From Deltaproteobacteria bacterium (GTDB taxonomy: Bacteria > Desulfobacterota > Binatia > Binatales > Binataceae), in the NCBI GenBank assembly GCA_021801125.1, contig JAJYYI010000020.1, positions 1-52,410 of the forward strand: a stretch of DNA of 52,410 nt, given 5' to 3'. The notes under the pieces were generated by a model. That model ran no database searches, was not told the origin of the DNA, and worked only from the letters and a program-made list of their open reading frames with translations. Below are positions 33,621-50,977 of this stretch, piece by piece. Within the stretch, counting starts at the first letter, position 1. The number at the start of each line of letters is the position of its first letter. A program made the translations under genes and the position numbers.

Positions 33621-33937
33621 CAGCGTACGCGCGCTATTTCGTCTGGAGATGTTCTCGCGCTGCCCAGAGGCAGGCAATGGCGCTTTTTTGAGTGAGCGAC
33701 TGCTTTCCCAACACACGTCTGGAGCCAGCGGCCCGCCGCCGCGACGTTTGCGCGAGCTGCGAATGTTCCTTGGTGAGCATTCCCAGGACAACGTCGCCCT
33801 GCCTGGCAAATGGTTGACGGCCTGTCTCCTGTTTGGACTTGAAGTGAGAAAGCCGGCATGGTTGGCCGGTCACAATCAGATCGTCGTCCATACACACAAA
33901 CACCTTGTCCGCGTATACGGCCCTTAGAGCGTTACAG
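33621..33937. other. Intergenic region at the left flank of the element
   Basis: No gene supported; several overlapping short frames on both strands are shadows. It separates the hpnK start from the tRNA-Phe fragment and is the last chromosomal stretch before the predicted junction. Confidence 0.4.
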
Positions 33938-33979
33938 TGGTGGGCAGGGGCAGAATCGAACTGCCGACACGAGGATTTT
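33938..33979 (-). repeat. 3' fragment of tRNA-Phe (predicted att site)
   Basis: Read on the minus strand, this is the 3' part of a tRNA: AAAATCCTC (anticodon loop and 3' stem), GTGTC (5-base variable loop), T arm GGCAG-TTCGATT-CTGCC, acceptor strand CCTGCCC, discriminator A and CCA. The order matches bacterial tRNA-Phe(GAA). The expected 5' half (beginning GGGCAGG) is missing, and the base for the first anticodon position is absent (GGATT-AAAATCC instead of GGATTGAAAATCC). A 3' tRNA fragment of this extent is the usual att duplication left by tyrosine integrases. Confidence 0.75.
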
Positions 33980-35847: not shown

Positions 35848-36447
35848 ATGCTGTCAAAGTTCTTTTCTTGCCTAAAGCAACGTGCGTCAACTAGCTCCAG
35901 TGGTCTAGACCCAAATACCCTCGGCTATGGCCGAGGCCTCTGCTCGTACAAGGAGCTGCGTGGCAAAGCCGACCGATACCTGCCGGAAATCATGAGGCAC
36001 ATCGCTGCTGCGCTGCGCGTACCGCTGAGCGCAGTTCAGACCACCAGCCTCTTTGAGGACAAAAACAAAAGCGTCGACCTGCGGGTTAAGCATTACCTAA
36101 TACACGTGCGCATCCGATTTTCGAGATTCGAGCCGGACGTTTTTACGCTCACCACCCTAGAGCAGAGTGGCCAGGCGGCCGAACTTACACGCGTTATTTA
36201 CGAACGGGCAGAAACGAATACAAACCGTGAACGGCTGCTCTTTTATGCGTGGGTGCGCAACGGGGCGCTCTACTGTTGGCGCCTGGTAACTCTGCGTCCA
36301 CTTCAAAATGCCCATCTACTCGGCACGACGATACGCAACCTCATCGATGGCGGGTCATTATACGTGGAAATTCCTTGGAATGTGCTCGGACCCTCCGCCA
36401 TTATTGCTGAAGATTGGCCGGTAGAGGAGATGCAAAATGCAGCATAA
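35848..36447 (+). CDS. Hypothetical protein of the replication operon
   Basis: 199 residues behind a very strong ribosome site (AGGAGGTG, 7 bases before the ATG), 14 bases after the RHH stop. The product is a soluble alpha/beta-looking protein (YLPEIMRHIAAALRVPLSAVQTTSLF, VDLRVKHYLIHVRIRF). I do not recognise a family. Its end overlaps the next gene by 11 bases, so they are translationally coupled. Confidence 0.75.
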   Translation: MLSKFFSCLKQRASTSSSGLDPNTLGYGRGLCSYKELRGKADRYLPEIMRHIAAALRVPLSAVQTTSLFEDKNKSVDLRVKHYLIHVRIRFSRFEPDVFTLTTLEQSGQAAELTRVIYERAETNTNRERLLFYAWVRNGALYCWRLVTLRPLQNAHLLGTTIRNLIDGGSLYVEIPWNVLGPSAIIAEDWPVEEMQNAA

Positions 36448-36928
36448 GAAAAACCCTTTGAAATATGAGCTTTTCGCTTTTGGTGCCCTGTTGTTAAGCG
36501 GGCTTGCGGCGCCCAGTCCGGTTCTACGGTGGGCTGGCCCGCTTGCTCTGCTGGGCGTGATGGCCGCGGCTGTTGTGTACACGTGGCTGGCTGAGGGTCC
36601 GACGCGCGGGCGCGAGGCCGCTCACGTGGCTGCTGGGGTTCTCAGCGCCCCGCTGCGCGCGCCTGGGGTTGTGGGCCGGGCCGCGTGGCGGTCACGCAGG
36701 GTGTGGGCGGTGCGCCTACCTATGCAGCGCCGGACTTACAGGGTGTTGCGCGCGGCGTGGGTAAGGCGACGCGGCGCCTTGCGCGCGCGTACCGGGCGCT
36801 GGAGGCGGGTCAACACGCCGCGGGCTCCAAGCTGCGATGGTGGCGAGTGCGAGCCGCCGTGGCCGCGCGTAGCTGTACTCGCGCTCTTGTCTGGGGAGGC
36901 CGCGCCAGTCGCGTGGGTACTGCAATGA
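36437..36928 (+). CDS. Small membrane protein of the replication operon
   Basis: 163 residues; two hydrophobic helices at about 11-28 and 32-51 (ALLLSGLAAPSPVLRWAG, ALLGVMAAAVVYTWLAEG) followed by a very arginine-rich cytoplasmic tail that could touch nucleic acid or lipid. Its ATG overlaps the end of the preceding gene and its TGA overlaps the next ATG (ATGA at 36925-36928), so the three are translated in series. No family recognised. Confidence 0.65.
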   Translation: MQHKKNPLKYELFAFGALLLSGLAAPSPVLRWAGPLALLGVMAAAVVYTWLAEGPTRGREAAHVAAGVLSAPLRAPGVVGRAAWRSRRVWAVRLPMQRRTYRVLRAAWVRRRGALRARTGRWRRVNTPRAPSCDGGECEPPWPRVAVLALLSGEAAPVAWVLQ

Positions 36929-37272
36929 ATACTGTTGCAGAACTTGCGCAACAGGACCTCGCCCGCAGCGGCCTGACGTGGGAGGATGCTCAAGCCGCAG
37001 GAATAGAGGCACTCCCCGCAGACGAAATCGAACGCCGGCTGGGATTTGAGCTAAAGGCCAAACCCTCTGGCGGTCTTTACATCCCATATCGCTCTCTCTT
37101 AGGTGAGCCCGTCACAGACTCCCTGAATCCAGACCAGCAGATTTTCCGCATCCGGCTATTGGCGCGCCACCCGAGCTGCCAAAATACTTGGCGCGCAAAG
37201 AGAGCGGCTGGGGTCTCTACATCCCGCCAAAGCTTGCCGACGTTTTTAAACCCGAGCTCCCGCTCGTCCTAA
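36925..37272 (+). pseudogene. N-terminal part of the fused replication protein (frameshifted)
   Basis: Starts at the coupled ATGA. The first 75 residues (MNTVAELAQQDLARSGLTWE, then RRLGFELKAKPSGGLYIPYRS) are in this frame. Near 37158 similarity moves to the -1 frame (APPELPKYLARKESGWGLYIP, then LVLTEGEKK), and at the A5 run 37284-37288 it moves by -1 again into the frame of the large ORF (AVAAVKAGIPTVAIAG). The TOPRIM/DUF3854-like domain is therefore spread over three frames. Two single-base deletions explain this; sequencing error, decay or frameshifting remain possible. Confidence 0.65.
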
Positions 37273-37342
37273 CTGAGGGCGAGAAAAAGCCGTTGCCGCG
37301 GTAAAAGCCGGAATTCCCACCGTCGCTATCGCCGGTTGTTGG

Positions 37343-40300
37343 ATGTTCGCCGACCCGGTAGCGCGTAACAAAGAGAAGAATGAGGCCATCGCGCGCGGCG
37401 AAGAAAAACCGCGGATTACGGCCGACACACCCATTCTTCCCCAAATCAAAGAGATAGTCACTCAGCTTGGCGTCACAAGCATTATCGTGCTGGCCGACGC
37501 CGATGCCGAAACTAAGCTGGACGTTCGGCGAGCCTTCGGCCTGCTGGCTCAGGCTATCGAAAAACAATGTGGGATTAAAACCTACGCCATCCGCGTTCCA
37601 GGCAACGGAGAGTTTAAAGGCCTCGACGACTGGTTAGTAGCGGCCGGCGCGCAGACGGTGAAATCGGCTTTGGCCTCAGCGGCGAGCTTTCCGCCACTAA
37701 CACGTAAACGGCCACAAAAACCAAGCCAACAAACCGGCACGGCTGTTGGGCTTCCGCCGTGCCCCGATACCGACCTCGCTAATGCTCGGCGGCTGCGTGA
37801 CGCTATAGGCAAAGACGTGTGTTACTGCAGCGCTTTGGGTTGGTTCATATACGACGGGAGGCGTTGGGTGCCCAATAAAGACCGCGTCTATCAGCTTTGC
37901 ACGCAAGTTGCCGACCTCGTTGGCAAAGAGGCATTAAAAGTCGCCAATTCGAGCTGCTATAACAAGCTCATTTCTTGGCGGCGTGAAAGCCACATGGCCG
38001 CGCGTATCCGCGCCGCATTTGAGCTGCTTCAATATGAGGTTCTGGTTGAGCCGGAGCAATTTGAGCAAAAGCCCTGGTTGTTGAACTGCTTAAATGGCAC
38101 CTTAGACCTGCGCAGCGGAGAGCTGCGGCCGCATAAACGCGAAGATTTTATCACCCATCTGGCGCCGGTTGTTTATGACCCGAAAGCGCGCGCGCCGCTT
38201 TGGGAGAAATTCTTAGCGCGCGTCATGCCCGACGCTGAAATTCGGGCTTTTCTGCGACGCCTTATTGGTTATGCGCTCACCGGGTGCGCTGACGAGCATA
38301 TCTTCCCCATAGCGTGGGGCTCGGGAAATAACGGAAAATCCACATTCACCAACACAATTCTGCAACTCTTGGGTACCTACGGCTTGACGGGCACCGTAAG
38401 CGTTCTCGCCCAAGTCCGGCCCGAGCAAATCAGAAACGACATAGCCGACCTCGCCGGAGCGCGATTTGTTTCCATCGCCGAGACCGACGAGCAATTTAAA
38501 CTCAACGAGGGAACCGTCAAACACATAACCGGCGGCGGAAAAATCCGCGCCCGCCAACTCTACGCAAAGAATTTTGAATTCTCACGCACGTGGCTAATTT
38601 GGCTCGAGACCAATAGTAAACCGGTTATCCGAGGCACCGACCAGGGGATATGGAGGCGTGTGGTTCTGATTCCGTGGCTTGTCTCTATCCCCAAGCCTGA
38701 GATTGACCCGCAATTGGGAAAGAAACTCCGCGACGAGCTTCCGGGCATACTCAACTGGGCCGTCGACGGAGTCAAAGAATATCTTGAGCGCGGCTTAGAT
38801 ATTCCCGACGCCGTTAGGGCGGCGACCGATGAATACCGCGCCGATTCGGATGATGTAGCCCGCTGGCTCCAATCCAAGTGTATCCAAGACCCAGCCGCCA
38901 TCGCGGCACATAAGGAGCTCTACAACTCGTTCCTCTCTTGGGCACGCGGTGAGAATATAAACTATCTGCCTAGCAGCAAAAGCTTTGCCGCCCGCCTTGA
39001 GGGTAGAGGTTTCGTCCGCGCCATACGAAGCGGACAAATCTACTGGCGCGGCCTTGCGCTTCAAAGCGCTAGTAATAATAGCGGCGGTTCGGAAAAAAGT
39101 TTCCCACCATTATCACCATCATCACCATCGTCACCTGCCGAGCCAAAAAATGTAGATAATTCGCGGCTTTCTTGCGGTGATGAACATCCTACCGAGGCCC
39201 AAAAATCGTCACCAAATCATCACCAAGGCGAGGTTGCCAATATAGGCGAGGTGAGGCACGATGGTGGCGGCGGCGCTTTCCTGACGACCTATAATGATGA
39301 GCTCAAAGCGGCCGCCGAGACCCTCGTTCTCGATATAGAGACGACCTCGCTTACTCCGTTTGCGCAAAAAGCCAGAGCTAAGAAGGGCGTTAATGATAGT
39401 CAACGGGTCCGGGTGATAACCGTCGGCGACCTCAACGGCAATGTCATGGCCTGGGATTTAGACCAGCTAAATGATGAACAAAAAGCACGACTCGCTTTTG
39501 ATGCGGTGAATGGCAGGGTGCTTGTCGGACACAACTTGACGTTCGATTTGTCTTGGCTCGCTTGGCTCGCTCCCGAGGCAAAACCAAAGCGCGTCGTTGA
39601 CTCGATGCTAGTCGTTCGGGTCTTTGACCACGGCGCCAGGTTTAACGTTCACGAACTGGCGGTAAACGACGAGACACTCCAGGCACTGCTAAAAAAGGCG
39701 CCAAACCAACTTGCCGGAGTATCGCTTGAGCACTGTTGCGCCGCCTACAACCTACCCCTGCCCGACAAGAGCTACCAAAAACCCGAGAATTGGGTCGAAG
39801 AGCTCACGCCCGCGCATTATAGCTACGTGGCCGACGACGTCACGCTGCCGCTTCAAATCGTGCGCAAAGCGCTGAGACTGCCCGACACCGCGAGTATAGA
39901 CGATATCCTCGCTCACATCGATGGCACGTTTTACGCCCAAAGGATTGAGCCTGCCATAGTTCAATTGGCTCAAGTACATCGTCGCGGCCTGCCAATAGAC
40001 AGCGTCGGCATGGCTGAGCTGCGCGAAAAGCTTTTGGCCCAGGCCCAGGAAGCCGCCGAAGAAGTGGTTAAAGTCGCGCCACAATTAGAGCCGGTAAAGG
40101 GCGAAATCGCGCGGGGCACCGAAACTAACGCCTTGCGCAACGCAATCGCTAGTTACCTCGCAGAGACCGGCCGAGAGCTGCCAACAACGGCCAAGGGGGT
40201 CGTAAGCCTAAGCGGCCCAGCTCTTAAGCAAGCCGGGCTTGATAATGACCCGGTAATTGCCGGGTTTAATAAGTCCAAAGCGGCCGCAAAGCGCATTGAA

Positions 40301-41446
40301 ATGCTCGACGAGTGGCAAGCCCGGCTCGGCAGCGACGGTAGGATTCACGGCGCCATCGGCATCGCGGCCGTTACTAATAGGCTCACCTCCGCCGCGCCCA
40401 ACATCCAAAATCTGCCGCGTGATGCCGAATGGCGAGCTATCGTTCGAGCGCGGCCGGGTCACAAGATAATCTCTATTGACTTCGGCCAAATCGAATTGCG
40501 TATAGCCGCCGGAATAGCTGTCGATACCTTTAATCAACTTGAGCGAGAGCTCAGCGAGCCGACCGGCAAGTTGCCCAAATGGTTGCGCGAGCCGTTGCTA
40601 GCAGTTCGCGACGATGAGCAGCCTAACATCATCACGCCCGAGAACAAATTCGAGGAGTACCGCGCCCGCGAGGCGGCAATAATGGCTCGCGCGTATCGCC
40701 ACGTCCGCCAGCACGGCATGGCCTTAGTTTCCGCCTTCCGCGACAACATTGACCCGCACTTGTTGACCGCGCTTATTATGGCCGCGCGCGCCGGAATAAT
40801 CGACCTCGGCGGTAAATCGCCAATCGAGTTTATCAAAGCGGCTGACCAGGCCGAGCTTAAGAAAAAGCTGGCGGCTCAACGGCAAGCTGCAAAAGCTCTT
40901 AACTTTGGCCTCTTATATGGTATGTCGGCCGGCGGGCTTTGGCGTTATGGGAAAACCGGCTATGGCTTGAGTTGGTCGGAGCAAGATGCCGAAGCGGCGC
41001 GCCAACAATGGTTTGATGCCTACCAGGAAATTACTTTATGGCACGCTTGGGTAAGGCACGCTTGTATAGCGCGCAAAGTCCCTATGTACGCGCCAAAGTA
41101 TGATGGTCAACTTATGACCGAGGAGAGACGCGTCTGGCGCGTAAAAACGTTGACCGGCCGCACTCTTGAAGCAATAGAGCTCAGAGACGCGTTGAATTAC
41201 TCCGACCAATCTACCGGCGCTGACCTGTTACTTATGGCCCTAACAAGCCTGCCCAAGCCGGCTGCTGATTATCTCATCGATTTGGTACATGACGAGCTGC
41301 TGTTCGAGGTGCCTGACAACGAGGTCGAGGCCGTGACTGCGGCGGCCAAAGAGGCCATGTTGGGGGCGGGCAGGCAAATTCTGACTCAGCCGTTCGGCAT
41401 CCCAGTAGACTGCGAGGTGGCCCTCGCGCCAGTCTGGCAGCACTAA
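37343..41446 (+). CDS. TOPRIM/DUF3854-SF3 helicase-exonuclease-family A polymerase fusion
   Basis: The intact part of a replication protein that would exceed 1500 residues if the upstream frameshifts were repaired. In numbering from 37343: end of the TOPRIM-like domain (IIVLADADAE, residue 50); D5_N-like region and SF3 helicase with Walker A GSGNNGKST at 326; an acidic/Ser-Pro linker near 590-640; 3'-5' exonuclease with D664 and E666 (DIETT), HNLTFDLSWL and YVADD; and polymerase motifs A (D1046, DFGQIELR), B (K1184...NFGLLYG) and C (VHDE, D1317). It could unwind, extend and proofread its own template. It is last in a coupled operon with an RHH regulator. Confidence 0.85.
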   Translation: MFADPVARNKEKNEAIARGEEKPRITADTPILPQIKEIVTQLGVTSIIVLADADAETKLDVRRAFGLLAQAIEKQCGIKTYAIRVPGNGEFKGLDDWLVAAGAQTVKSALASAASFPPLTRKRPQKPSQQTGTAVGLPPCPDTDLANARRLRDAIGKDVCYCSALGWFIYDGRRWVPNKDRVYQLCTQVADLVGKEALKVANSSCYNKLISWRRESHMAARIRAAFELLQYEVLVEPEQFEQKPWLLNCLNGTLDLRSGELRPHKREDFITHLAPVVYDPKARAPLWEKFLARVMPDAEIRAFLRRLIGYALTGCADEHIFPIAWGSGNNGKSTFTNTILQLLGTYGLTGTVSVLAQVRPEQIRNDIADLAGARFVSIAETDEQFKLNEGTVKHITGGGKIRARQLYAKNFEFSRTWLIWLETNSKPVIRGTDQGIWRRVVLIPWLVSIPKPEIDPQLGKKLRDELPGILNWAVDGVKEYLERGLDIPDAVRAATDEYRADSDDVARWLQSKCIQDPAAIAAHKELYNSFLSWARGENINYLPSSKSFAARLEGRGFVRAIRSGQIYWRGLALQSASNNSGGSEKSFPPLSPSSPSSPAEPKNVDNSRLSCGDEHPTEAQKSSPNHHQGEVANIGEVRHDGGGGAFLTTYNDELKAAAETLVLDIETTSLTPFAQKARAKKGVNDSQRVRVITVGDLNGNVMAWDLDQLNDEQKARLAFDAVNGRVLVGHNLTFDLSWLAWLAPEAKPKRVVDSMLVVRVFDHGARFNVHELAVNDETLQALLKKAPNQLAGVSLEHCCAAYNLPLPDKSYQKPENWVEELTPAHYSYVADDVTLPLQIVRKALRLPDTASIDDILAHIDGTFYAQRIEPAIVQLAQVHRRGLPIDSVGMAELREKLLAQAQEAAEEVVKVAPQLEPVKGEIARGTETNALRNAIASYLAETGRELPTTAKGVVSLSGPALKQAGLDNDPVIAGFNKSKAAAKRIEMLDEWQARLGSDGRIHGAIGIAAVTNRLTSAAPNIQNLPRDAEWRAIVRARPGHKIISIDFGQIELRIAAGIAVDTFNQLERELSEPTGKLPKWLREPLLAVRDDEQPNIITPENKFEEYRAREAAIMARAYRHVRQHGMALVSAFRDNIDPHLLTALIMAARAGIIDLGGKSPIEFIKAADQAELKKKLAAQRQAAKALNFGLLYGMSAGGLWRYGKTGYGLSWSEQDAEAARQQWFDAYQEITLWHAWVRHACIARKVPMYAPKYDGQLMTEERRVWRVKTLTGRTLEAIELRDALNYSDQSTGADLLLMALTSLPKPAADYLIDLVHDELLFEVPDNEVEAVTAAAKEAMLGAGRQILTQPFGIPVDCEVALAPVWQH

Positions 41447-41657
41447 GTAAGCGCTTCCAGCTTGCAAAGCGGCGCGCCATAGGCAGGTGTCATTGTGCCA
41501 GCGTTTGCCTAAAATTGCTTAAGCTTTCTGGCGGGCAGACATGAGCGGAGCGCCGCAAGGCGGAGTAGACCGGGGTGATAGACCCGCCCCTGGGAAGGGC
41601 GATAAACGGTAGCGCTTCGGCTATGAAGATGCGGCGGTGCGTGTTACTATGTCGCAC

Positions 41658-41879
41658 ATGAAAGGCGACACTATAACCGTCCGGCTCGACGACGACCTGG
41701 CTCCGCTCCTCGACGAGGTGTGCCGGCGTTCGGGACGGACGCGCAGCGAGGTGATGCGCGAAGCGCTAAGGCGCCATCTGGCGCAGCTTCGGTTCGAGCA
41801 GTTGCGCCGGCGCGTGATGCCGTTTGCGGAGGCGCGCGGCTATCTGACCGATGAGGACGTGTTCAACCAGGTGTCGTGA
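41658..41879 (+). CDS. RHH antitoxin of a PIN-type toxin-antitoxin pair
   Basis: 73 residues from the ATG at 41658 (ATG 41649 is an alternative). ITVRLDDDLAPLLDEVCRRSGRTRSEVMREALRRHL is a clear ribbon-helix-helix domain, and the C-terminal tail (FAEARGYLTDEDVFNQVS) would wrap the toxin. The TGA overlaps the toxin GTG (GTGA). The dimer should repress its own promoter and neutralise the PIN toxin. Confidence 0.88.
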   Translation: MKGDTITVRLDDDLAPLLDEVCRRSGRTRSEVMREALRRHLAQLRFEQLRRRVMPFAEARGYLTDEDVFNQVS

Positions 41880-42307
41880 GGGTTTTTCCCGACACCAACG
41901 TGCTCGCCAGCGCGCTGGGCACGCGCGGGCTCTGCGCCGACGTGCTGCGGCTTGTCCTGGCGGAGCACGAACTAGTGACCGGCGAGGTGGTGCTCGAGGA
42001 GCTGCGCACCGTGTTGAAGGGGAAATTCCGCGTTCCTACCGCCGCCATCGAGGATATCGAGTGGTTCCTGCGCGGCTATCACGTGCAAGGAAGACCTCGC
42101 GAGCTGCCGGAGCTGAAACTTGCCGACCGCAACGACCTGCTGGTGGTGGGCTCGGCGCTCGGGGCAAAGGCGGAGATACTAATTACGGGAGACCGGGAAA
42201 TAGTCGACCTCAAGGAGAAGCCCCAAGGCTTGCGAATCGTAAGTCCGCGCGAGTTTTGGAACCTGGCCGCTCGCAAAGAGAAGAGCAAGCCAAAGGCAGA
42301 GGGATAG
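41876..42307 (+). CDS. PIN domain toxin (VapC-like)
   Basis: 143 residues from a GTG overlapping the antitoxin stop. The PIN acidic residues are D6 (FPDTNVL), E41/E42 (VVLEEL), D84/D87 (DRNDLLV) and D106 (ITGDREI). PIN toxins cleave RNA with Mg2+, commonly tRNA or rRNA. A lysine-rich C-terminal tail (KEKSKPKAEG) is extra. This pair forms the left side of the defence island and may stabilise the element. Confidence 0.9.
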   Translation: MRVFPDTNVLASALGTRGLCADVLRLVLAEHELVTGEVVLEELRTVLKGKFRVPTAAIEDIEWFLRGYHVQGRPRELPELKLADRNDLLVVGSALGAKAEILITGDREIVDLKEKPQGLRIVSPREFWNLAARKEKSKPKAEG

Positions 42308-42347: not shown

Positions 42348-42515
42348 GTGAAGCCGATCAGCGTCACGCTGGAGAAAAGCAAAGAGACCAAGGGCACGTA
42401 CCGGTTCGATTCGCCGGACCCGAACGCGGCGATCACCAGTGTGTATATTAGGAAAAGTGCTTTCCAGAGCGGTGCAGTGCCTGAACGCATTACGCTTACG
42501 GTGCAGGAGGCGTAG
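42348..42515 (+). CDS. 55-residue conserved-looking small protein
   Basis: A GTG start with AGGAG 6 bases upstream opens a 55-codon frame: ISVTLEKSKETKGTYRFDS, a short loop, then VYIRKSAF and RITLTVQEA. The beta-rich, charged pattern resembles small hypothetical proteins I recall from other bacterial genomes, without a known function. It lies between the PIN toxin and the HEPN-like gene, whose ATG follows after 7 bases. Confidence 0.65.
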   Translation: MKPISVTLEKSKETKGTYRFDSPDPNAAITSVYIRKSAFQSGAVPERITLTVQEA

Positions 42516-42522
42516 GCGGCGA

Positions 42523-43518
42523 ATGGACGGCAACCCGAACGATTTTCAAATCAAAGCGGGTGAGGACTTCGCCTGCATTTGCTTCAGCGGCGCCGAGTTC
42601 AGCGCCGGGCAACTGCCAGACCCTTTCGAAGCGGAGCCAGGCCTCTGGGTTTCGCGTAAGCCCCCGTCCGGCTTGCCCGAGGCTCTCCCTCAAAACTGGC
42701 TTGCACTGCACGTTCCACTGGTCATTTTGCAATGCGTTGATCTCGTGATAACGGCCAAGAAGGTGGCATTTCCCGAACAACCAGCGACACCGCTGGTGAG
42801 ACGCGCGGAAAATCTCTTCTGGGGCATCTGCGTAGTAGCGGGAATCATACAATTCCGCTCGTGCTACGCTATTAGTGCGAAGGCAAGTACGCCGTCCATT
42901 TGGACCAATTTGCCCAGGGTGTACCAGATTCAGGGGGCAACGCTTCCTCTTTTGTCCTGTGAAAAGCTGAGCGAAGCTGCGAAATTCGCTCAGCGCGTAG
43001 AGCAGATGATAGAAGAGTGGGAGAGTCCGCCTAGTAAAAACTCCTTGACTGGCTTATACCTCCGACCTATCAGTGGCTTCGCCGCTTTCCAGATTGGCGC
43101 GCAACAGAGAGAACCGGCCTATCGCCTGCATCAATTTGTGCGAACCGTCGAGGCGTTCATGCCCGCGTCCGTTCGCGGCTCGGACGATTTTGTAAAACGT
43201 GGTTCCTCATTACTCCAGCGGGATTCAAGGAACGCCAACGGGCTGAAACAGATGTACGACCTCCGAAGCGCGACGGAACACCATCGGCCGTTTGATCAAC
43301 GAGCGCTCCCCGGCGTAAGCAATCCCAACGACATCGCGATGCAAAGGGCGCGGCAGGCCGAAACTCTGGCCCGCGAGGTGTTGCGCCGATTTGTTGCCGG
43401 ACCGAAGGATCTTCTGGCGCATTTTAAGGATGAAACATCGCTGGAGAACTTCTGGGCGAGTTCGCGAGAAGTGTCTCAGGCTTGGGGCGCACCGATGGAC
43501 ATCAACGCGGGGCCCTGA
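42523..43518 (+). CDS. HEPN-like protein in the type III RM locus
   Basis: 331 residues from the ATG at 42523. I recognise no family over the first 200 residues. The C-terminal third is helical and has R248-S-A-T-E-H253 (R-x4-H) followed by a long helix with ARQAETLAREVLRRF, the arrangement of Apea-like HEPN ribonuclease domains. HEPN proteins in defence loci are often RNases. It precedes mod by 29 bases and could be an abortive-infection guard of the type III system (inference). Confidence 0.65.
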   Translation: MDGNPNDFQIKAGEDFACICFSGAEFSAGQLPDPFEAEPGLWVSRKPPSGLPEALPQNWLALHVPLVILQCVDLVITAKKVAFPEQPATPLVRRAENLFWGICVVAGIIQFRSCYAISAKASTPSIWTNLPRVYQIQGATLPLLSCEKLSEAAKFAQRVEQMIEEWESPPSKNSLTGLYLRPISGFAAFQIGAQQREPAYRLHQFVRTVEAFMPASVRGSDDFVKRGSSLLQRDSRNANGLKQMYDLRSATEHHRPFDQRALPGVSNPNDIAMQRARQAETLAREVLRRFVAGPKDLLAHFKDETSLENFWASSREVSQAWGAPMDINAGP

Positions 43519-43547
43519 TTGATTCACCAGGGGGAGTCGTGGCGAGA

Positions 43548-46283
43548 ATGAGAAGGCCGGCGAGGCCGCCGGCGGCTGAAACCTACCGGCATCGCGAGGC
43601 CGAAAGCCCGCTTCGGCCGGATGTTGGAACTCAGGCGCAGTTTCGCAAGAAAAAGCCGCCGGCCACCTATCGCTACGATTCGTCGCTCGCGCCAGAGTTG
43701 AATTGGGACGGGCAGAATCCGGCGCGCGAGCGCGGCGAAGCGCTGATCGCGCGGATTCTCGAAGCCGAATCGCTCGAGGAGGCCAAAAGCGCGGCAGCCG
43801 AGCTCAAGGCGCTGAGCAAGCCGTTCCTGAATTGGGTGGGGAAGGCCGAGCGGCTCTCGTTCGACGTGCTGACGCTGCCGCTCTTCATCCATGAGCGGCT
43901 TTCAACCAAGGCGATAATCGAGACGCTCAAGGGCCATCGGCGCGACCCGCAGATGGAACTTGAGCTGTTCGCCGACCCGCAGCATTCGATCGCCGACCAG
44001 GTGCTGCGCGCCTATGAGCATCGCGACAGGTGGGTCAACCGGATGATTCTCGGCGACTCGCTCGTGGTGATGAATTCGCTGCTCCATTTCGAGGGGCTGG
44101 GCGGGCAGGTGCAGATGATCTACATGGACCCGCCCTACGGCGTTAAGTTCGGCTCGAACTTCCAGCCCTTCGTCCGCAAGCGCGATGTCGACCACAACGA
44201 CGACGAGGACATGACACGCGAGCCGGAGATGGTGAAGGCCTATCGCGACACGTGGGAACTGGGACTCCATTCCTATCTGACCTACCTGCGTGACCGCCTG
44301 CTTCTCTGCCGCGAATTGCTCACACCAAGCGGAAGCATTTTCGTGCAGATTAGCGACGAAAACCTGCGTCACGTCCGCGAGGTTATGGATGAAGTGTTCG
44401 GCGGCGATAACTTCGTGAGCGTTATTACCTTCGCGAAGACGACGGGCTTTTCCGGGAAAGTTCTCTCTTCCGTATCAGACTATATACTTTGGTATGCAAG
44501 AGACGTTGATCGACTGAAATATTTTCAACTCTACCGACCAAAAGAAGCAGGTGATGAAGGCGCGACTAAGTACCGCCCTGTAGAAACGATATCTGCCATT
44601 CCGCCGGGTAGATTCGCTGTCGGTCGCCTTGCGACGTCAGCTGATCTGACGTCGCAAGGCGCACTGCAAAACTCGCCCCAAGAGTTCGAATTCGAGGGTC
44701 GCACCTGGCTTCCTCCTCCAGGCTTGCATTGGAAGACAACGGTTGACGGGCTCCAACGCCTCGCGAATGCAGGACGCATCGTCGTCGAGGGAAATTCCCT
44801 ACGGTATATAAGGTTCCTGGATGACTTTTCGGTCTTTCCCCTTTCAAACATCTGGGCCGACGTCGGAGGAATTCAGAATCGATCGGAGGGGAAGCTTTAC
44901 GTCGTGCAGACTGCCGCGCTCGCAATCCAGCGTTGCATGCTGATGACCACCGATCCGGGCGATCTGGTACTCGATCCGACGTGCGGCAGCGGCACCACGG
45001 CCTATGTCGCCGAGCAATGGGGACGGCGCTGGATTACAACTGATGTTTCACGCGTGCCGCTGGCGCTCGCGCGCCAGCGCCTGCTCACCGCGACGTTTCC
45101 ATACTACGAGCTTAAAGACGAGGCGCGCGGCCCGTCGGGCGGCTTCGTTTACAAGCGCAAGCAGAACGCCAAGGGCGAGGAAGTGGGCGGCATCGTGCCG
45201 CACATCACGCTTGAATCGATCGCCAACGATCAGCCGCCCAGGGAAGAAATTCTCGTTGACCGTCCCGAGGTCGTAGGCGGAGTCACCCGCGTGACCGGGC
45301 CGTTCGTGGTCGAAGCGACCATACCCACGCCGATGGATTTCGAACCCGCCGAACGCGACGGTGCGGGCGAGCAGCAACCCGCGGCGGACTACGCCTCGTT
45401 CACCGAGCGGATGCTCGAAGTGCTGCGCAAGTCGCCGGTCCTGCATGTCGGCGGCGGCAAGGCGGTAAATCTCAAGAACATCCGCCCGCCCGCGAAAACC
45501 TTAGCGCTGTCGGCTGAAGCGGTCGTGGCGAATGGCGGCCGGGACCCTCACCCTCGCCCTCTCCCAGAGGGGGAGGGAAAAAAGACAGGGGCCGAAGCGC
45601 AGGTCGTAAACGGCAACGGCAATGGCAAAACCGTCGCGATCGTGTTCGGCCCCGAAAATGGCGCGGTCAGCGAAAAGCTGGTCTACGAGGCGGCGCGCGA
45701 GGCGCACGCTAAAGGCTATGTGCATCTCTACGTGATCGGCTTCGCGATCCAGCCGAACGCGCGCAACCTGATCCACAATGCCGAGGCGGCGGTCGGCGTG
45801 CCCGCAACCTACGTGCAGGCGACGCTCGATCTGAGGATGGGCGACCTGCTCAAGAACATGCGCTCAAGCCAGATCTTCAGCGTATGCGGCCTGCCGGAAG
45901 TCGCGGTCCGGAAGTCCACGGCGAAGAGCGGCAACGGCAATCCGATGTATGAAGTCGAACTGCTCGGCCTCGATGTGTTCGACCCGATAACGATGCAAAC
46001 TGAGCATCGGCGCGGCGACGACGTGCCCGCGTGGTTTCTCGACACCGACTACAACGGCCTCAGCTTCCACGTTTCGCAGGCTTTCTTTCCTCGGACCGGC
46101 GCCTGGGAGAATCTGAAGCGCGCGTTGCGCGGCGTATATGAAGATACGGTCTGGGACCATCTGGCGGGTACCGTGAGCGCGCCGTTCGAAGCGGGCGAGC
46201 ACGGCCAGATCGCGGTCAAGGTGATCGACGACCGCGGCAACGAACTGATGGTGGTCAAGGACCTGAAGGATTTGCGAAAATAA
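43548..46283 (+). CDS. mod: Type III restriction-modification methyltransferase (Mod)
   Basis: About 911 residues from the ATG at 43548 (GTG 43539 behind GGGGGAG is an alternative). A long N-terminal region precedes catalytic motif IV DPPY (D194), the recognition domain, and AdoMet motif I DPTCGSGTT (476), the beta-class order of type III Mod subunits. The C-terminal third binds Res. A perfect 16-bp inverted repeat lies inside the recognition-domain coding region and a REP-like repeat is inserted in frame in the linker at 45557. Mod alone methylates adenine on one strand and gives the complex its specificity. Confidence 0.94.
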   Translation: MRRPARPPAAETYRHREAESPLRPDVGTQAQFRKKKPPATYRYDSSLAPELNWDGQNPARERGEALIARILEAESLEEAKSAAAELKALSKPFLNWVGKAERLSFDVLTLPLFIHERLSTKAIIETLKGHRRDPQMELELFADPQHSIADQVLRAYEHRDRWVNRMILGDSLVVMNSLLHFEGLGGQVQMIYMDPPYGVKFGSNFQPFVRKRDVDHNDDEDMTREPEMVKAYRDTWELGLHSYLTYLRDRLLLCRELLTPSGSIFVQISDENLRHVREVMDEVFGGDNFVSVITFAKTTGFSGKVLSSVSDYILWYARDVDRLKYFQLYRPKEAGDEGATKYRPVETISAIPPGRFAVGRLATSADLTSQGALQNSPQEFEFEGRTWLPPPGLHWKTTVDGLQRLANAGRIVVEGNSLRYIRFLDDFSVFPLSNIWADVGGIQNRSEGKLYVVQTAALAIQRCMLMTTDPGDLVLDPTCGSGTTAYVAEQWGRRWITTDVSRVPLALARQRLLTATFPYYELKDEARGPSGGFVYKRKQNAKGEEVGGIVPHITLESIANDQPPREEILVDRPEVVGGVTRVTGPFVVEATIPTPMDFEPAERDGAGEQQPAADYASFTERMLEVLRKSPVLHVGGGKAVNLKNIRPPAKTLALSAEAVVANGGRDPHPRPLPEGEGKKTGAEAQVVNGNGNGKTVAIVFGPENGAVSEKLVYEAAREAHAKGYVHLYVIGFAIQPNARNLIHNAEAAVGVPATYVQATLDLRMGDLLKNMRSSQIFSVCGLPEVAVRKSTAKSGNGNPMYEVELLGLDVFDPITMQTEHRRGDDVPAWFLDTDYNGLSFHVSQAFFPRTGAWENLKRALRGVYEDTVWDHLAGTVSAPFEAGEHGQIAVKVIDDRGNELMVVKDLKDLRK
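44625..44661. repeat. Perfect 16-bp inverted repeat within mod
   Basis: CGCCTTGCGACGTCAG (44625-44640) and CTGACGTCGCAAGGCG (44646-44661) are exact complements around CTGAT. It encodes RLATSADLTSQGA in frame, in the region between motifs IV and I where the target recognition domain lies. Such a long perfect palindrome is unexpected in coding sequence. Confidence 0.85.
45557..45577. repeat. REP-like palindrome translated in frame
   Basis: CCCTCTCCC-AGA-GGGGGAGGG, with CCCTCACCCTCG just before it, is the palindromic unit usually seen between genes. Here it is read through as PHPRPLPEGEG within the Mod linker. Confidence 0.7.
46199..46260 (+). repeat. Copy 1 of the 62-bp mod-end repeat
   Basis: The last codons of mod (HGQIAVKVIDDRGNELMVVK). 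It matches 47121-47182 at about 56 of 62 positions; the copies flank the MNT and HEPN genes. Confidence 0.85.
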
Positions 46284-46298
46284 GCGCGGGAAACCGGT

Positions 46299-46649
46299 AT
46301 GACGGAGCAAATCGACGGCGACCTGGTCGCGCGCGACGCGAATCTGGCCGAGATCGTGCGGCGGTTGGTCGACGCCTACCATCCCCTTGCCATCTACCTG
46401 TTCGGCTCGAAAGCGCGCGGCGACGCCGGCCCTGACAGCGACTACGACCTGCTGCTGGTGGTGCCCGACGACGCTCCGGCCGAGCGGCGCCGCAGCCGGC
46501 TTGCGTATGAGACTCTGTGGCGTTGCGGAACGACGGGCGCGGTCGACGCTCTGGTTTGCACGCAGTCCTACTTCGACGCCCGCCGCCATCTTAAAGCGTC
46601 GTTGCCCGGAACCGTCCTGCGCGAGGGAAAGCTGCTCTATGCCGCATGA
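46299..46649 (+). CDS. MNT-type nucleotidyltransferase (antitoxin)
   Basis: A 116-residue minimal nucleotidyltransferase. GS at residues 36-37 and D48, D50 (FGSKARGDAGPDSDYDLLLVV) form the conserved GS-x9-DxD motif. Members such as MntA add AMP to their HEPN toxin partner. Its stop overlaps the HEPN gene by 11 bases, so the two are coupled. The pair is inserted between the mod and res subunits of the type III system. Confidence 0.92.
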   Translation: MTEQIDGDLVARDANLAEIVRRLVDAYHPLAIYLFGSKARGDAGPDSDYDLLLVVPDDAPAERRRSRLAYETLWRCGTTGAVDALVCTQSYFDARRHLKASLPGTVLREGKLLYAA

Positions 46650-47052
46650 CCCGGCCCTAGTTGCGGATACGGCGGCCTGGCTGCGAAAGGCGGAAGAAGA
46701 CCTGGCTATCGCGGAGGAACTGTTGAAGCCTGCAAAAGCTCTTTGCGGCGGCGCGGTGTTTCACTGCCAGCAGGCCGCCGAGAAGGCGTTGAAAGCGTTC
46801 CTGGTCTGGCACGATGTGCCTTTCCGCAAGACTCATGACCTGAGAGAGCTGGGCAATGCTTGCATCAGGATCGAGGCGACTCTGAAAGAAGCGATCGCGG
46901 ACGCGATTCCGCTTACCGAGTACGCATGGAGGTTTCGATATCCGGGCGAGCCGGCGCAGCCCACAAAGCGCGAGGCGCGGGCCGCCTTGGCGGCGGCGCG
47001 CAATCTTTACGGCGCGATCAAGTCGCGCCTGCCGAAGGACGTAAAGCCGTGA
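46639..47052 (+). CDS. HEPN domain toxin, partner of MNT
   Basis: 137 residues from the ATG at 46639, overlapping the MNT gene. The four-helix HEPN fold is clear (WLRKAEEDLAIAEELLKP, AVFHCQQAAEKALKAFLVW, RKTHDLRELG). Together with MNT this is a HEPN/MNT toxin-antitoxin pair in which the HEPN protein is an RNase controlled by AMPylation or by binding. The strict R-x4-6-H motif is not obvious; the conserved THDL stands in that part. Confidence 0.88.
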   Translation: MPHDPALVADTAAWLRKAEEDLAIAEELLKPAKALCGGAVFHCQQAAEKALKAFLVWHDVPFRKTHDLRELGNACIRIEATLKEAIADAIPLTEYAWRFRYPGEPAQPTKREARAALAAARNLYGAIKSRLPKDVKP

Positions 47053-47120
47053 ACTGCGAGAAGCAGCCGAGTACGAAGTTCAGGAATCAACGCTGAGCGC
47101 GAGGCCGCTCCAAGCGGGGT

Positions 47121-47199
47121 GCATGGCCGGATCGCGGTCAAGGTGATCGACGACCGCGGCAACGAATTGATGGTGGTGAAAGGCTTCGTTCGAATCTGA
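47121..47199 (+). pseudogene. Relic of the 3' end of a second mod gene
   Basis: The frame HGRIAVKVIDDRGNELMVVKGFVRI-stop repeats the C-terminus of the Mod protein, 860 bases after the real one. Most of the differences from copy 1 are synonymous (CAC/CAT, CTG/TTG, GTC/GTG, AAG/AAA), so the copies diverged while under coding selection and are not a fresh duplication. Confidence 0.7.
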
Positions 47200-47229
47200 T
47201 GGCGAGCCGGTTACTTGAGGAGAAAGGAC

Positions 47230-47826
47230 GTGCCCGCAATCAAGAACTTTGGGTATCTTTGGGACCGGGATCGAGTGTTTTGGGGACGACCTAAAGTAGA
47301 GGGGACTCTGCTCGGCTACAACCCCAGCTTCGGTAAGATTGACTTCCGCGACCAGAGGGGCGTTTACCTTCTGCACACATCAGAACTTAAGGTCGTTTAT
47401 GTGGGTCAAGTGGGCGCCGGCAACCAAACTCTTTTTGATCGCCTCAAAGCCCATACGAGAAGCGACAAGCTTTGGAATCGGTGGCGTTATTTCAGTTGGT
47501 TCGGCTGGCGAGGCGTCAACAAAGGCAACCACAAGCTAGCGAACTATGGTGGTGGTGCGCCGAACGTTAATGGAAGCAGCGAAGAATTCCTAGACGAGAT
47601 CGAAGCTGTACTCCTTCAGGTCGTCGAGCCGCCGCTAAATAGCCAAGGTCCAAAGTGGAAGGATACTGTCCATTTCGAGCAGTTCGACGACGATCAGCTG
47701 CGACGCTCAGACTTGCCGAGTATAGCGGAGAAGCAGGCCGAGCTAGCGACGCAGCTTGAACAAGTACAGAAGACGTTGAGCAGGCTCAAGAAGGGATTAA
47801 AAAAAGGAAAGTCTGGCGATGCCTGA
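47230..47826 (+). CDS. GIY-YIG nuclease family protein between mod and res
   Basis: 198 residues from the GTG at 47230 (AGGAGAAAGG just upstream). GVYLLHTSELKVVYVGQVGAGNQTLFDRLKAH shows the GIY...YVG signature and following Arg helix of GIY-YIG endonucleases; the C-terminus is a lysine-rich coiled coil. It overlaps the res start by 8 bases, so it is produced together with Res. Such a nuclease is not a usual subunit of type III systems; an added restriction activity is possible. Confidence 0.78.
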   Translation: MPAIKNFGYLWDRDRVFWGRPKVEGTLLGYNPSFGKIDFRDQRGVYLLHTSELKVVYVGQVGAGNQTLFDRLKAHTRSDKLWNRWRYFSWFGWRGVNKGNHKLANYGGGAPNVNGSSEEFLDEIEAVLLQVVEPPLNSQGPKWKDTVHFEQFDDDQLRRSDLPSIAEKQAELATQLEQVQKTLSRLKKGLKKGKSGDA

Positions 47827-50800
47827 CTACGAAGTGCCAGAACCGATTCTCAACACGCCATTCGAGGAGCCGGCTTGGCACTGGAACATCGAGGAGGGCA
47901 AGCAGCCCGAGAGGCGCGAGGGCCGGCGCGAGGCAGGCTACTTCTATCGCGATCCGAAAGCGCCCCCGGCAGATGGCGAGCACGAAGCGCGCGGCGTCTG
48001 GACGCCGCTTGAATTGGTCAATCGCATCCGCGCCGAGATCAAGAAATGGCGCGAAGCCGGCTATCCCGGCGTGACCCGCACCACGCTCGACCTGCTCAAC
48101 TACTGGCGCGGCGACGGCCGCCAGCATCGCTTGTTCTTTGCCCAGCTCGAAGCCGCCGAGACGATAATTTTCCTGACCGAAGCGCGCGCGGACTTCCGCC
48201 AGGGAATCGACGTACCCCTCGATTCACCGAGCGAGGAGCGCCAGGGCGACGGCTTCAAAGCGTTCGTGCGTTACGCGCTCAAGATGGCGACCGGTACGGG
48301 CAAGACCACGGTTATGGGGATGCTCGCCGCGTGGAGCATCCTCAACAAGGTCGCCGACAAGAGCGACGCCCGATTCTCGGATACCGTGCTCGTGGTCTGT
48401 CCCAACGTTACGATCCGCAACCGCCTCGGAGAACTCCATCCCGAGGATGGTGAGGCGAGCCTGTATCGCACGCGCGATCTGGTTCCGGAACACCTGATGC
48501 CCGACCTGACGAAGGGGCGCGTCGTTATCACGAACTGGCACGTGTTCGAACCCCAGGCGGTGCAGAGCGGCGGCGCGGGCGCCAAGGTGATAAAAGCGGG
48601 CGAGCGCGTGGAAGTGCGCGAGACCATCACGATCGAGCCGAAGACGACGGTGGCGCGCGGTCGGCGATATCTTACACCGGAAGAATTCGAGCGGCAGAAA
48701 GCGCTCGGCCTGATCGAGGTCCTAAGCGAGGAGCGCGACAAGCAGGGTAACTTGAAGCGCGCCCAGATTCGCTCCTACAGGTATGTCGAAAGCGCGACGG
48801 CGCTGGTCAACCGCGTGCTGGGAGAAGATCTCCGCGGCAAGCAGAACCTCCTGGTATTTAACGACGAAGGCCATCACGCGTATCGCATTCGGCGGCCGGA
48901 ACCCGATGAGTCAGAGCGCGAGGAATTTGGCGAAGAGGAGGAGGCCGAAGAATTCTTCAAGGAAGCCACCGTCTGGATCGACGGCCTGGACAAGATTCAC
49001 AAGCTTCGCGGAATCAACTTCTGCGTCGACCTTTCCGCGACGCCCTATTTCCTGGGACGGGTTGGGCAGCAAACCAACCGCATCTTTCCGTGGACGGTGA
49101 GCGACTTCGGCCTTACCGACGCGATTGAATCAGGGCTGACGAAAATCCCGCAGCTCGTGGTGCGCGACCCGAGCGGCTCGGAGGTGCCAAGCTACTTTAA
49201 TATCTGGCGCTGGATTTTGACGAAGCTTACCCCAGCCGAGCGCGGCGGAAAGCGAAGCGACGCCAAGCCGGAAGCGGTCGTCAAGTGGGCGAGTCATCCG
49301 CTACTGATGCTCGCCGGAATGTGGGAGGAGCAGCGCCGGCAGTGGGAGCGTGAGCGCGAAGACCCGCGTCCGCCGGTGTTCATCATCGTTTGCAAGAACA
49401 CGCGGATCGCGAAAGTCATCTACGAATGGCTTGCCAAGGGCGAAACGCCGACCGGAATTCCACCGGCTCAGATTGAGGCCCTTCGAGACACGGACAGCCG
49501 GATTAACACGATCCGGGTTGATTCGAAGGTCGTGCAGGAAACCGACCGTGGCGGTGCCGCGATAAGCGATGAAACCGCCTGGATGCGGGTGACGCTGGAT
49601 ACGGTCGGCAAAATGGAATGGCCCAGGGATCGGCAGGGCCGTCCGATCTATCCCGAGGGTTTCGAGGATCTCGCGAAAAAGCTCGGCAAGCCGTTGCATC
49701 CGCCGGGGCGTGACTTGCGCTGCATCGTGAGCGTCGGAATGCTGACCGAAGGCTGGGACTGCAACACGGTCACGCATATCGTCGGGCTGAGACCCTTCAT
49801 GTCGCAGCTACTCTGCGAGCAGGTCGTGGGTCGAGGACTCCGGCGGGCGAGTTACGAAGTTGGCGGCGACGGCAAACTAACCGAGGAAGTAGCCAAGGTT
49901 TTCGGAGTACCCTTTGAAGTCGTGCCGTTCAAGGCAAGCAAAGGGGCGGCGCGCCCGTCGGAGAAGCGTCATCACGTCTATCCGGTACCCGGGAAGGCGC
50001 GATTCGAGATCAGATATCCGCGGGTTCAGGGCTATCGGCAGGCAATTCGTAACCGGGTTACGATCAACTGGAACTCGATCGCGCCGCTGGTCCTCGATCC
50101 ACTCAATATTCCCCCGGAAGCAGAAATGAAAGCAGCGTTGCCGAACAACCAAGGGAGACACACGCTTTCCGGGCCGGGCGGTCTTGAGCGCGTCGACCTG
50201 AATCCGTATCGGAAGACACTCCGATTTCAGCAACTGGTTTTCGAGATGGCGGCGGCGCTGACGCGCGATTACGTCGCACAGCCGTCGTGCGAAGCGCCGG
50301 CGCAGGTTCTGTTTCCCCAGCTCCGCGCGATCGTCGAACGGTACCTGAATGAAAAAGTGCGCCCGGTCCCGCCGGCAGAAACCCTCGACGTGGCGCTGTC
50401 GCCATACTACGGATGGGTCGTCGAGCGGCTGGTTGAAGCGATCAAGCCGGACGTGTCGCAGGGGGAAGCGCCGTTACTGCCGATTTATGAAGGTCGGCGC
50501 GGTCCGGGCAGCACGGCCGAAGTTGATTTCTGGACGAGTCGAGACGTGCGCGAAGTCGCGCGCAGCCATCTGAATTACGTTGTCGCCGATACGGCGCAAT
50601 GGGAGCAATCGGCGGCGTACTTCATCGATACGCACCCTTCTGTCGAAGCGTTCGTCAAGAACGATGGGCTCGGCTTCGCGATTCCATACTTCCATAATGG
50701 GCAGCCGCACGACTACATGCCCGACTTCATCGTGAGATTGAAGACCGAGCCGCCGACCCATCTCATCCTTGAGGTCAAGGGTTTCGACCCGCTGAAGGAA

Positions 50801-50962
50801 GTCAAGAAGCAGGCCGCCGAGCGCTGGATCGAGGCGGTCAACGCAGACGGCACCTACGGTCGATGGGATTATGTGCTTGTCGCGAGACCGGTGGATATCA
50901 TAACGGTTCTCAACACCGTAGGCGGAACCGGACATCAACCTGTTCCGAGTGCCGCCGTGTAG
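47819..50962 (+). CDS. res: Type III restriction endonuclease subunit (Res)
   Basis: 1047 residues. SF2 helicase motifs: Walker A ATGTGKT (157-163), DEGHH (349-353, in place of DEAH), SATPYF, and motif VI QVVGRGLRR. The C-terminal PD-(D/E)xK nuclease has D969 (YMPDFIV) and E985/K987 (LEVKG). Res with Mod translocates or slides along DNA using ATP and cuts about 25-27 bp from the site when two inversely oriented sites are met (family knowledge). The gene is intact, so the system is likely active. Confidence 0.95.
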   Translation: MPDYEVPEPILNTPFEEPAWHWNIEEGKQPERREGRREAGYFYRDPKAPPADGEHEARGVWTPLELVNRIRAEIKKWREAGYPGVTRTTLDLLNYWRGDGRQHRLFFAQLEAAETIIFLTEARADFRQGIDVPLDSPSEERQGDGFKAFVRYALKMATGTGKTTVMGMLAAWSILNKVADKSDARFSDTVLVVCPNVTIRNRLGELHPEDGEASLYRTRDLVPEHLMPDLTKGRVVITNWHVFEPQAVQSGGAGAKVIKAGERVEVRETITIEPKTTVARGRRYLTPEEFERQKALGLIEVLSEERDKQGNLKRAQIRSYRYVESATALVNRVLGEDLRGKQNLLVFNDEGHHAYRIRRPEPDESEREEFGEEEEAEEFFKEATVWIDGLDKIHKLRGINFCVDLSATPYFLGRVGQQTNRIFPWTVSDFGLTDAIESGLTKIPQLVVRDPSGSEVPSYFNIWRWILTKLTPAERGGKRSDAKPEAVVKWASHPLLMLAGMWEEQRRQWEREREDPRPPVFIIVCKNTRIAKVIYEWLAKGETPTGIPPAQIEALRDTDSRINTIRVDSKVVQETDRGGAAISDETAWMRVTLDTVGKMEWPRDRQGRPIYPEGFEDLAKKLGKPLHPPGRDLRCIVSVGMLTEGWDCNTVTHIVGLRPFMSQLLCEQVVGRGLRRASYEVGGDGKLTEEVAKVFGVPFEVVPFKASKGAARPSEKRHHVYPVPGKARFEIRYPRVQGYRQAIRNRVTINWNSIAPLVLDPLNIPPEAEMKAALPNNQGRHTLSGPGGLERVDLNPYRKTLRFQQLVFEMAAALTRDYVAQPSCEAPAQVLFPQLRAIVERYLNEKVRPVPPAETLDVALSPYYGWVVERLVEAIKPDVSQGEAPLLPIYEGRRGPGSTAEVDFWTSRDVREVARSHLNYVVADTAQWEQSAAYFIDTHPSVEAFVKNDGLGFAIPYFHNGQPHDYMPDFIVRLKTEPPTHLILEVKGFDPLKEVKKQAAERWIEAVNADGTYGRWDYVLVARPVDIITVLNTVGGTGHQPVPSAAV

Positions 50963-50977
50963 GTAATCTTCGTCTTC

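Follow-up and report, generated by a model that had tools for sequence, protein, structure and literature searches.

A predicted SF3 helicase-family A DNA polymerase fusion in a tRNA-Phe-bordered island of a Binataceae bacterium

A contig of 52,410 nucleotides from a Deltaproteobacteria bacterium of the family Binataceae (assembly GCA_021801125.1, contig JAJYYI010000020.1; this whole stretch is hereafter called the window) carries on its plus strand a single uninterrupted open reading frame (ORF) of 1367 codons, running from an ATG to a stop at positions 37343-41446. The encoded protein is predicted to combine a helicase with a proofreading family A DNA polymerase (PolA), and its gene, a candidate replicase gene, lies in an integrated island that has a copied tRNA-Phe 3' end at one border. 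The parts of this gene, and two upstream pieces of its first domain, are listed here by position, strand, content and (in parentheses) basis.

36925..37160, plus strand: N-terminal piece of DUF3854/TOPRIM, frame 1, with ATG at 36925 (homology; codon use to about 37.12 kb)
37150..37300, plus strand: middle piece of DUF3854/TOPRIM with the LTEGEKK glutamate motif, second frame (homology, codon use)
37343..41446, plus strand: open frame of 1367 amino acids (aa) with TOPRIM C-terminal half, D5_N, SF3 helicase, linker, 3'-5' exonuclease and family A DNA polymerase (ORF, Pfam, PHROG, NCBIfam, structure model)
37784..38227, plus strand: D5_N domain, aa 148-295 (PF08706, 1.1e-32)
38075..38986, plus strand: SF3 helicase/P4-type primase C-terminal region, aa 245-548, Walker A at aa 326 (TIGR01613, 5.2e-74; PF19263)
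39074..39262, plus strand: hydrophilic linker coded by simple repeats, aa ~578-640 (tandem repeats, codon use)
39305..39892, plus strand: 3'-5' exonuclease domain, aa ~655-850, limits by alignment (alignment, structure model, PF01612 0.006)
39944..41440, plus strand: family A polymerase domain, aa ~868-1366, lower limit by alignment (PF00476, 4.5e-34; structure model)
40514..40753, plus strand: region after polymerase motif A with an insert, aa ~1058-1137 (79 residues here versus 15 in ordinary PolA)

The front half of the window protein is of the SF3/D5 type, as it has both a D5_N domain and an SF3 AAA+ core with a Walker A motif (GSGNNGKS at aa 326), and the NCBIfam model for the P4-type primase C-terminal family, TIGR01613, scores 248.8 bits against a cut-off of 108.7. 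In Pfam, D5_N, DUF5906 (aa 326-439, 5e-7) and DNA_pol_A exceed their gathering scores, the last in two stretches of which the best covers aa 1174-1366; the exonuclease model PF01612 and DUF3854 (aa 30-104, 0.0037) fall below theirs. The PHROG collection gives phrog_6088 (1.9e-113, aa 68-576) as the best of several primase families and the DNA polymerase phrog_17 (8.1e-81) across aa 648-1365, while the PRK14975 exonuclease/polymerase models of NCBIfam match below their cut-offs. Among solved structures compared by sequence, Pol I chains come closest to the polymerase part and primase C962R to aa 239-440 (6e-10). No DUF927 or DnaB-type match was obtained at an expectation value (E) of 0.01 with Pfam, PHROG or NCBIfam, and D5_N-SF3 stands in that place.

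The initial annotation had placed Walker A (as GSGNNGKST), three exonuclease motifs and polymerase motifs A, B and C in one open frame, and all of them were located there. The exonuclease motifs are DIET at 664 (exo I; D664 and E666), NLTFD (exo II; D735) and YVADD (exo III; Y828 and D832), and the polymerase motifs are DFGQIE at 1046 (A), RQAAKALNFGLLYG at 1180 (B) and HDE at 1316 (C). Its SF3 and PolA domain assignments are likewise borne out by Pfam and NCBIfam matches above cut-off on one chain. Sequence analysis thus confirms that the predicted protein carries a D5_N plus SF3 helicase and an exonuclease-positive PolA in one frame.

An alignment of 15 polymerases, window included, was used to examine the second half and also served as input for an AlphaFold2 model of aa 639-1367. 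The polymerase residues checked are the same in all 15 rows. Of the exonuclease residues, D664 is retained by 13 of the 15, with a gap in locus L110 and a change in L196, and the others are retained by 14, the exception being L196. For the exonuclease-polymerase part, the structure prediction called for by the initial annotation returned a Pol I-like fold with a mean predicted local distance difference test score (pLDDT) of 89.3 and a predicted template modelling score of 0.89. Among solved structures, Foldseek ranked Aquifex pyrophilus Pol I first (E 2.2e-27), followed by the polymerase of apicoplast PREX (5.5e-24). VIA-align gave the apicoplast polymerase (apPol, 5dkt) a Z score of 28.5 and a root-mean-square deviation of 4.6 over 505 residues. 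Because all 50 structures listed by VIA-align lie at Z 24-28.5, the comparison establishes the fold and no special kinship. The exonuclease assignment, with a Pfam match below cut-off, follows from the aligned exonuclease residues and the model. In this model, the part has the Klenow-like exonuclease and thumb, palm and fingers fold expected of a proofreading family A enzyme.

A TOPRIM domain was also proposed to belong to the same chain, and as assembled this does not hold: the DUF3854/TOPRIM domain runs from the ATG at 36925 through three frames, with switches near 37.15 and 37.28 kb, and the open frame at 37343-41446 keeps just its DxD half (LADADAE). Both TOPRIM motifs, TEGEKK (Glu) and ADADAE (DxD), are encoded, in different frames. 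When the three pieces were searched separately against nine ORFs of loci L023, L030, L110 and L112, they matched successive parts of intact DUF3854 proteins, namely those of L110 and L030, with best E values of 3e-8, 2e-4 and 2e-22. The first piece matched L110 at 3e-8, L030 at 2e-5 and L112 at only 0.19; the middle piece matched the same three at 2e-4, 0.005 and 0.017; and the third matched L112 at 6e-6. Codon use was scanned after training on 17 window stretches free of stops, two of them from the replicase itself. The favoured frame changes near 37.14 kb, from 1 to 0, and again near 37.28 kb, to 2, with frame 0 best for scan windows starting at 37140-37260. The domain is thus real, yet it lies outside the open frame as assembled. 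The frame-1 piece has no cysteine between the ATG at 36925 and the first switch for a zinc-binding domain of the DnaG-type primase.

Two frame switches mean that the gene may be damaged or that the assembly is locally wrong. By codon use, and with no homologue, a third switch is possible near 36.66 kb, in the ORF preceding the replicase (window 36437-36928 / 36685-37272). Programmed frameshifting was considered and is not favoured: a run of A lies at the second switch, nothing like a slippery site is seen at the first, and the scheme would demand high efficiency at both. If the switches are instead real mutations, the gene could be a decaying remnant of an island replication function that is being lost. 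Two switches within about 140 bp, perhaps with the third in the preceding ORF, fit such decay, which we nevertheless hold to be improbable because none of the three TOPRIM pieces has a stop codon in its used stretch and 1367 codons retain the catalytic residues. Any damage would therefore be very recent, or else a sequencing error.

Relatives were collected by profile scans, the first of which, in viral contigs and in genomes, returned at least 600 and at least 589 stretches. Four scans that used alignments as queries retained the best 80 loci of 249 (viral), 454 (genomes), 284 (viral) and 132. Six short patterns from the window protein alone found no relative in genome or viral contigs; such patterns suit close kin only. 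In a tree of 36 chosen polymerases, which holds no PREX or OS3173 sequences, the window polymerase groups with L030, L110, L112, L023, L193, L194, L195, L196 and L032 on a long branch (support 100/100), and three Aquificota PolAs fall outside this clade (100/100). Most of the clade has a long insert after motif A. The distance from motif A to the next conserved block is 63-125 residues in seven of the eight members measured (window included; L023 and L032 not among them) and 23 in L196, versus 15 in all seven PolAs measured from outside the clade.

Among the clade rows, only the window has its polymerase fused to a helicase; the front of L032 is lost at the end of its contig. For six of the nine clade relatives, a gene for a DUF3854 protein lies at most 2 kb from a separate polymerase gene. 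Pfam names the DUF3854 neighbours of L030, L110, L112, L195 and L196, and that of L194 is seen only by a custom hidden Markov model built from those five loci and L269. In L023, from Variovorax, no DUF3854 was found, and its neighbouring ORF 1-2283 matches neither Pfam nor the custom model. The remaining two, L193 and L032, are short contigs and close to L030. Helicase domains named in the clade DUF3854 genes are DUF927 (L030) and DUF5906 (L194). At L194:6935-10677, an insert-clade PolA is followed by an overlapping DUF3854-like/DUF5906 SF3 gene, so that the parts seen in the window protein occur there in reversed order as two genes.

TOPRIM-D5_N-SF3 proteins of actinophages can be aligned with the N-terminal half of the window protein, that of phage Emotion over aa 35-616 and that of phage phiBT1 (gp9a) over aa 35-582. 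Both phage genomes have a separate PolA gene 1.2-1.3 kb downstream of the TOPRIM-D5_N-SF3 gene, and in AvGardian the primase-helicase and PolA genes overlap by 4 bp. Among the matches listed, replication proteins of phages and mobile elements make up most of the nearest relatives of both halves.

How rare is such a fusion? The scans yielded 395 loci in total, duplicates included (L192 is the same as L030; L281 and L325 are the same as L230; L001, L271, L301 and L306 derive from the window). A helicase is present in 126 of them, a polymerase in 279, and both in 37. SF3, exonuclease and PolA occur in one ORF at just two loci, the window and L230, a viral contig from IMG/VR. The L230 chain is 1546 aa from stop to stop and contains Prim-Pol, D5_N, SF3, exonuclease and PolA. 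Its helicase is 37% and its polymerase 26-34% identical to those of the window, and it stands elsewhere in the tree, which makes the two fusions separate. For L230 as a fusion, no close relative was found; five other loci match its polymerase part only. Among 50,697 phage and 72,556 plasmid entries, 1119 and 447 have some match to the window protein, but none reaches 80% coverage of it at a single place, and none does so for the L230 chain. The expectation that SF3 and PolA would be found on one chain in several genomes is thus borne out only weakly, by two unrelated cases.

In ten more long chains, PolA follows front modules of other kinds; nine of these chains were recognized by Pfam and L058 by similarity to L059. 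L174 and L186 are Prim-Pol-DUF3987 plus PolA chains, and L269 combines DUF3854, a weak DUF927, exonuclease and PolA. The other seven (L049, L050, L058, L059, L156, L164 and L187) are 1472-1589 aa chains from viral contigs, Verrucomicrobiota and Methanosarcina, in which Prim-Pol is followed by a middle of ~700 or more residues, an exonuclease and PolA. This middle has no Pfam match and could be a helicase not yet described. L230, L269, L174 and L186 are 45-52% identical in their polymerase parts, and their front modules are of three kinds. Related PolAs with three different primase or helicase modules suggest that single-chain replicases have been built repeatedly from exchangeable parts. On the tree, the states ‘fused’ and ‘alone’ require six changes, and the well-supported branches force four for the eleven fused rows other than the window; these counts apply to rows that were chosen rather than sampled, and some changes may be splits instead of fusions. 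Set aside as a different kind were two viral chains (L246:329-3766 and L266:4547-7936) in which uracil-DNA glycosylase is joined to exonuclease and PolA and the polymerase contains an intein and an HNH nuclease.

Most helicase homologues align up to about aa 570-580 of the window protein, and the exonuclease starts near 655. The linker between them contains tandem repeats at 39105-39135 and 39203-39226. Its ambiguous codon use may count against the fusion or be a mere effect of odd composition, and leaves room for a lost stop or an indel. Two ordinary neighbouring genes, one for a primase-helicase and one for PolA, could therefore have been joined only by assembly, or they could be translated separately, for example from an internal GTG at 39251. 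We judge this unlikely. The reading frame runs unbroken out of the helicase, across the linker and into the exonuclease, and similar simple-repeat coding is present at both linker ends. Two frame switches do already occur 2 kb upstream in the same gene, whereas the large contig genes that were searched are intact. In the clade and in the actinophages examined, helicase and PolA are encoded by separate genes that lie close together, and no second genome with the window fusion was found; yet L230, an independent fusion, also has a repeat-rich linker. Repeat-rich or low-complexity tails after the helicase are seen in L230 and in the unfused L111.

Several known systems resemble the window protein in part. 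OS3173 Pol of pyroviruses (Thermocrinis Octopus Spring virus) is described as a 1,606-aa DUF927-exonuclease-PolA polyprotein whose relatives are fused or split (PubMed Central article PMC7689252), much as fusion varies across the clade of the window. It shares with the window protein a primase/helicase-like N-terminal region, a 3'-5' exonuclease and PolA on one chain, but it comes from a hot-spring virus and has a DUF927 helicase instead of D5_N-SF3. According to the same article, the polymerases of Aquificae and PREX are relatives of the OS3173 PolA (PMC7689252). Locus L269 has the OS3173 Pol architecture. The helicase of PREX is Twinkle/T7 gp4-like (SF4), not SF3. In apicomplexan plastids, PREX unites primase, helicase, 3'-5' exonuclease and PolA in one polypeptide (PMC8113025). 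It is like the window protein in having helicase, exonuclease and PolA on one chain, and its polymerase is among the best structural matches of the window model; unlike the window gene, it is a eukaryotic gene with a proteolytically processed product. Helicase, exonuclease and PolA stand on the window chain in the order of the OS3173 and PREX type.

TV-Pol, or PolA-S3H, of Sputnik-type virophages and polinton-like viruses is likewise a single chain from mobile elements that unites a family A-type polymerase with an SF3 (D5-like) helicase; its helicase is C-terminal and, as described, it has no exonuclease (PMC2579912, PMC11071308). The window protein differs in having the helicase first and then a full exonuclease-PolA. 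For GP55 of lactococcal phage 1706, biochemical work has shown that one protein acts as SF3 helicase, primase, exonuclease and polymerase, and without its polymerase domain the helicase activity is nearly lost (PMC12205980). SF3 helicase, exonuclease and polymerase are likewise predicted on the chain of the window protein; GP55, in contrast, has a family B polymerase and an AEP primase. The ‘DNA primase/helicase’ gp9a of the phiC31/phiBT1 type is a TOPRIM-D5_N-SF3 protein alignable over window aa 35-582, but its DNA polymerase (gp11) is a separate gene. Pas55 of Actinoplanes phage phiAsp2 (AY576796; L314:1457-5701) resembles the window protein as a 1415-aa single ORF with DUF3854 and PolA; it differs in having no D5_N or SF3 match and only short, weak similarity to the window polymerase. 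In this cultured phage, Pas55 is annotated simply as a putative DNA polymerase.

The rarity claimed at the outset accordingly stands for SF3 joined to a complete PolA (two of 395 loci, no phage or plasmid record at 80% coverage) and falls for helicase-PolA chains in general, given PREX, OS3173 Pol and PolA-S3H. No exonuclease-positive SF3-PolA fusion was reported in the literature searched, a body of text with most subscription papers outside it. The single-chain helicase-PolA kind is already known, and the combination of SF3 with an exonuclease-positive insert-clade PolA in a bacterial tRNA island is new within the searched scope.

The surroundings of the replicase gene contain the following features.

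33939..33979, minus strand: 41-bp exact copy of the tRNA-Phe(GAA) 3' end, att-like island border (100% over 41 bp)
35848..36447, plus strand: 199-aa ORF upstream of the replicase, no family match (Pfam, NCBIfam, PHROG, PADLOC)
41637..42307, plus strand: RHH plus PIN toxin-antitoxin-like pair directly downstream of the replicase (PF01402 2.4e-12, PF13470 2.7e-9)
43482..50962, plus strand: restriction-modification block (domain and PADLOC searches), comprising the next three genes
43482-46283, plus strand: N6/N4 methyltransferase
46387-47052, plus strand: HEPN protein
47819-50962, plus strand: BPTD_3080-family restriction endonuclease
50863-51852: DUF5131 protein overlapping the end of the restriction endonuclease gene (strong match to PADLOC PDC-M41B/PDC-M30B and phrog_2045)

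The mobile element setting suggested by the initial annotation agrees with the 41-bp tRNA-Phe copy at the border. This copy matches, at 100% over 41 bp, the intact tRNA-Phe of the same genome on contig C10 (L305 9660-9734), which sits 216 bp from its contig end and has an upstream region syntenic with sister genome G001. When 6.1 kb of the window was used as a query, a stretch starting at 33936-33939 and ending at 33979 was matched in 10 of 10 family genomes, and it is the tRNA-Phe(GAA) 3' end in all three family genomes scanned for tRNA. Because the fragment reads toward lower coordinates, the sequence above 33979 is the inserted island and that below it chromosome. The island exceeds 18 kb and the contig ends inside it, so that one border is seen; a search of the same genome with the window end found no contig continuing the island. 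The sequence evidence supports the placement of the fused gene in an island bordered by this tRNA-Phe copy.

Both ORFs that flank the replicase, 35848-36447 and 42439-43518, lack matches in Pfam, NCBIfam, PHROGs and PADLOC. The toxin-antitoxin and restriction-modification neighbours raise the thought that the fused protein is a defence or repair enzyme and not an island replicase. A weak PADLOC match of its PolA part to a DRT system (RTasPolA, 45 bits) points the same way, and a defence role for the PolA-helicase sets of mobile elements has been raised in PMC10061031. No reverse transcriptase domain was matched in Pfam, PHROG or NCBIfam, however, and with the nearest relatives listed for both halves being largely phage and mobile-element replication proteins, we regard a defence or repair role as very improbable.

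We consider it probable, with moderate confidence, that the window protein is the replicase of a tRNA-Phe integrative island, in which a TOPRIM-D5_N-SF3 primase-helicase of the phiC31/phiBT1 type is joined by a flexible linker to a proofreading family A polymerase. Several observations weigh against this proposal. Two frame switches break the TOPRIM domain as assembled, and linker codon use does not favour the reading frame. Three overlapping sets of related genomes, with 193, 395 and 148 members, contain the fusion in the genome of the window only (with at most three candidates scored per genome in the first and two in the second). The available part of the island has no integrase among the ORFs searched and no iteron-like repeats, its repeats being two-copy families only. 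Finally, the model of the helicase part, made from four sequences, has a mean pLDDT of 46 and is too poor for use.

SF3 helicases form rings and move 3'-5' on the leading-strand template. For the candidate island replicase, the motor and the copying enzyme would travel as one molecule. After excision, the SF3 part might assemble as a ring at the island origin and unwind island DNA, and the tethered exonuclease-PolA would copy the strand behind the ring while the exonuclease proofreads, with no polymerase borrowed from the host. The TOPRIM domain, when intact, might make or help make the primer; this is the least certain step, because ‘primase’ is a name by annotation and no cysteine for a zinc domain precedes the first switch. 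Judged from the encoded domains, replication of the island without a host polymerase is plausible. That the protein is a genuine single-chain, self-sufficient replisome of a bacterial integrative element, with TOPRIM primase, SF3 ring helicase, proofreading exonuclease and insert-clade PolA, is a more tentative proposal whose likelihood we place slightly short of even.

The fusion may have originated by the joining of two neighbouring genes, since the DUF3854 protein and the polymerase are encoded by neighbouring separate genes in the same clade. L230 shows a separate origin of a single chain with SF3, exonuclease and PolA. The combination is of interest because published PolA-S3H fusions, like the AEP-S3H fusions of eukaryotic viruses, are said to lack an exonuclease, and helicase and exonuclease have been proposed to compensate for each other (PMC11071308). 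With both activities predicted on one chain in the window protein and in L230, this compensation idea becomes testable. If the proposed replisome is genuine, it would be a direct counter-example to helicase fusion and exonuclease as alternative routes to fidelity, as outlined in that account. It would also count among several independent occasions on which a PolA single-chain replicase arose with an exchanged helicase module. Should the fused protein be made, it would tie a motor to a proofreading polymerase, so that leading-strand coupling could be studied with one enzyme, which might perhaps also serve for isothermal DNA copying.

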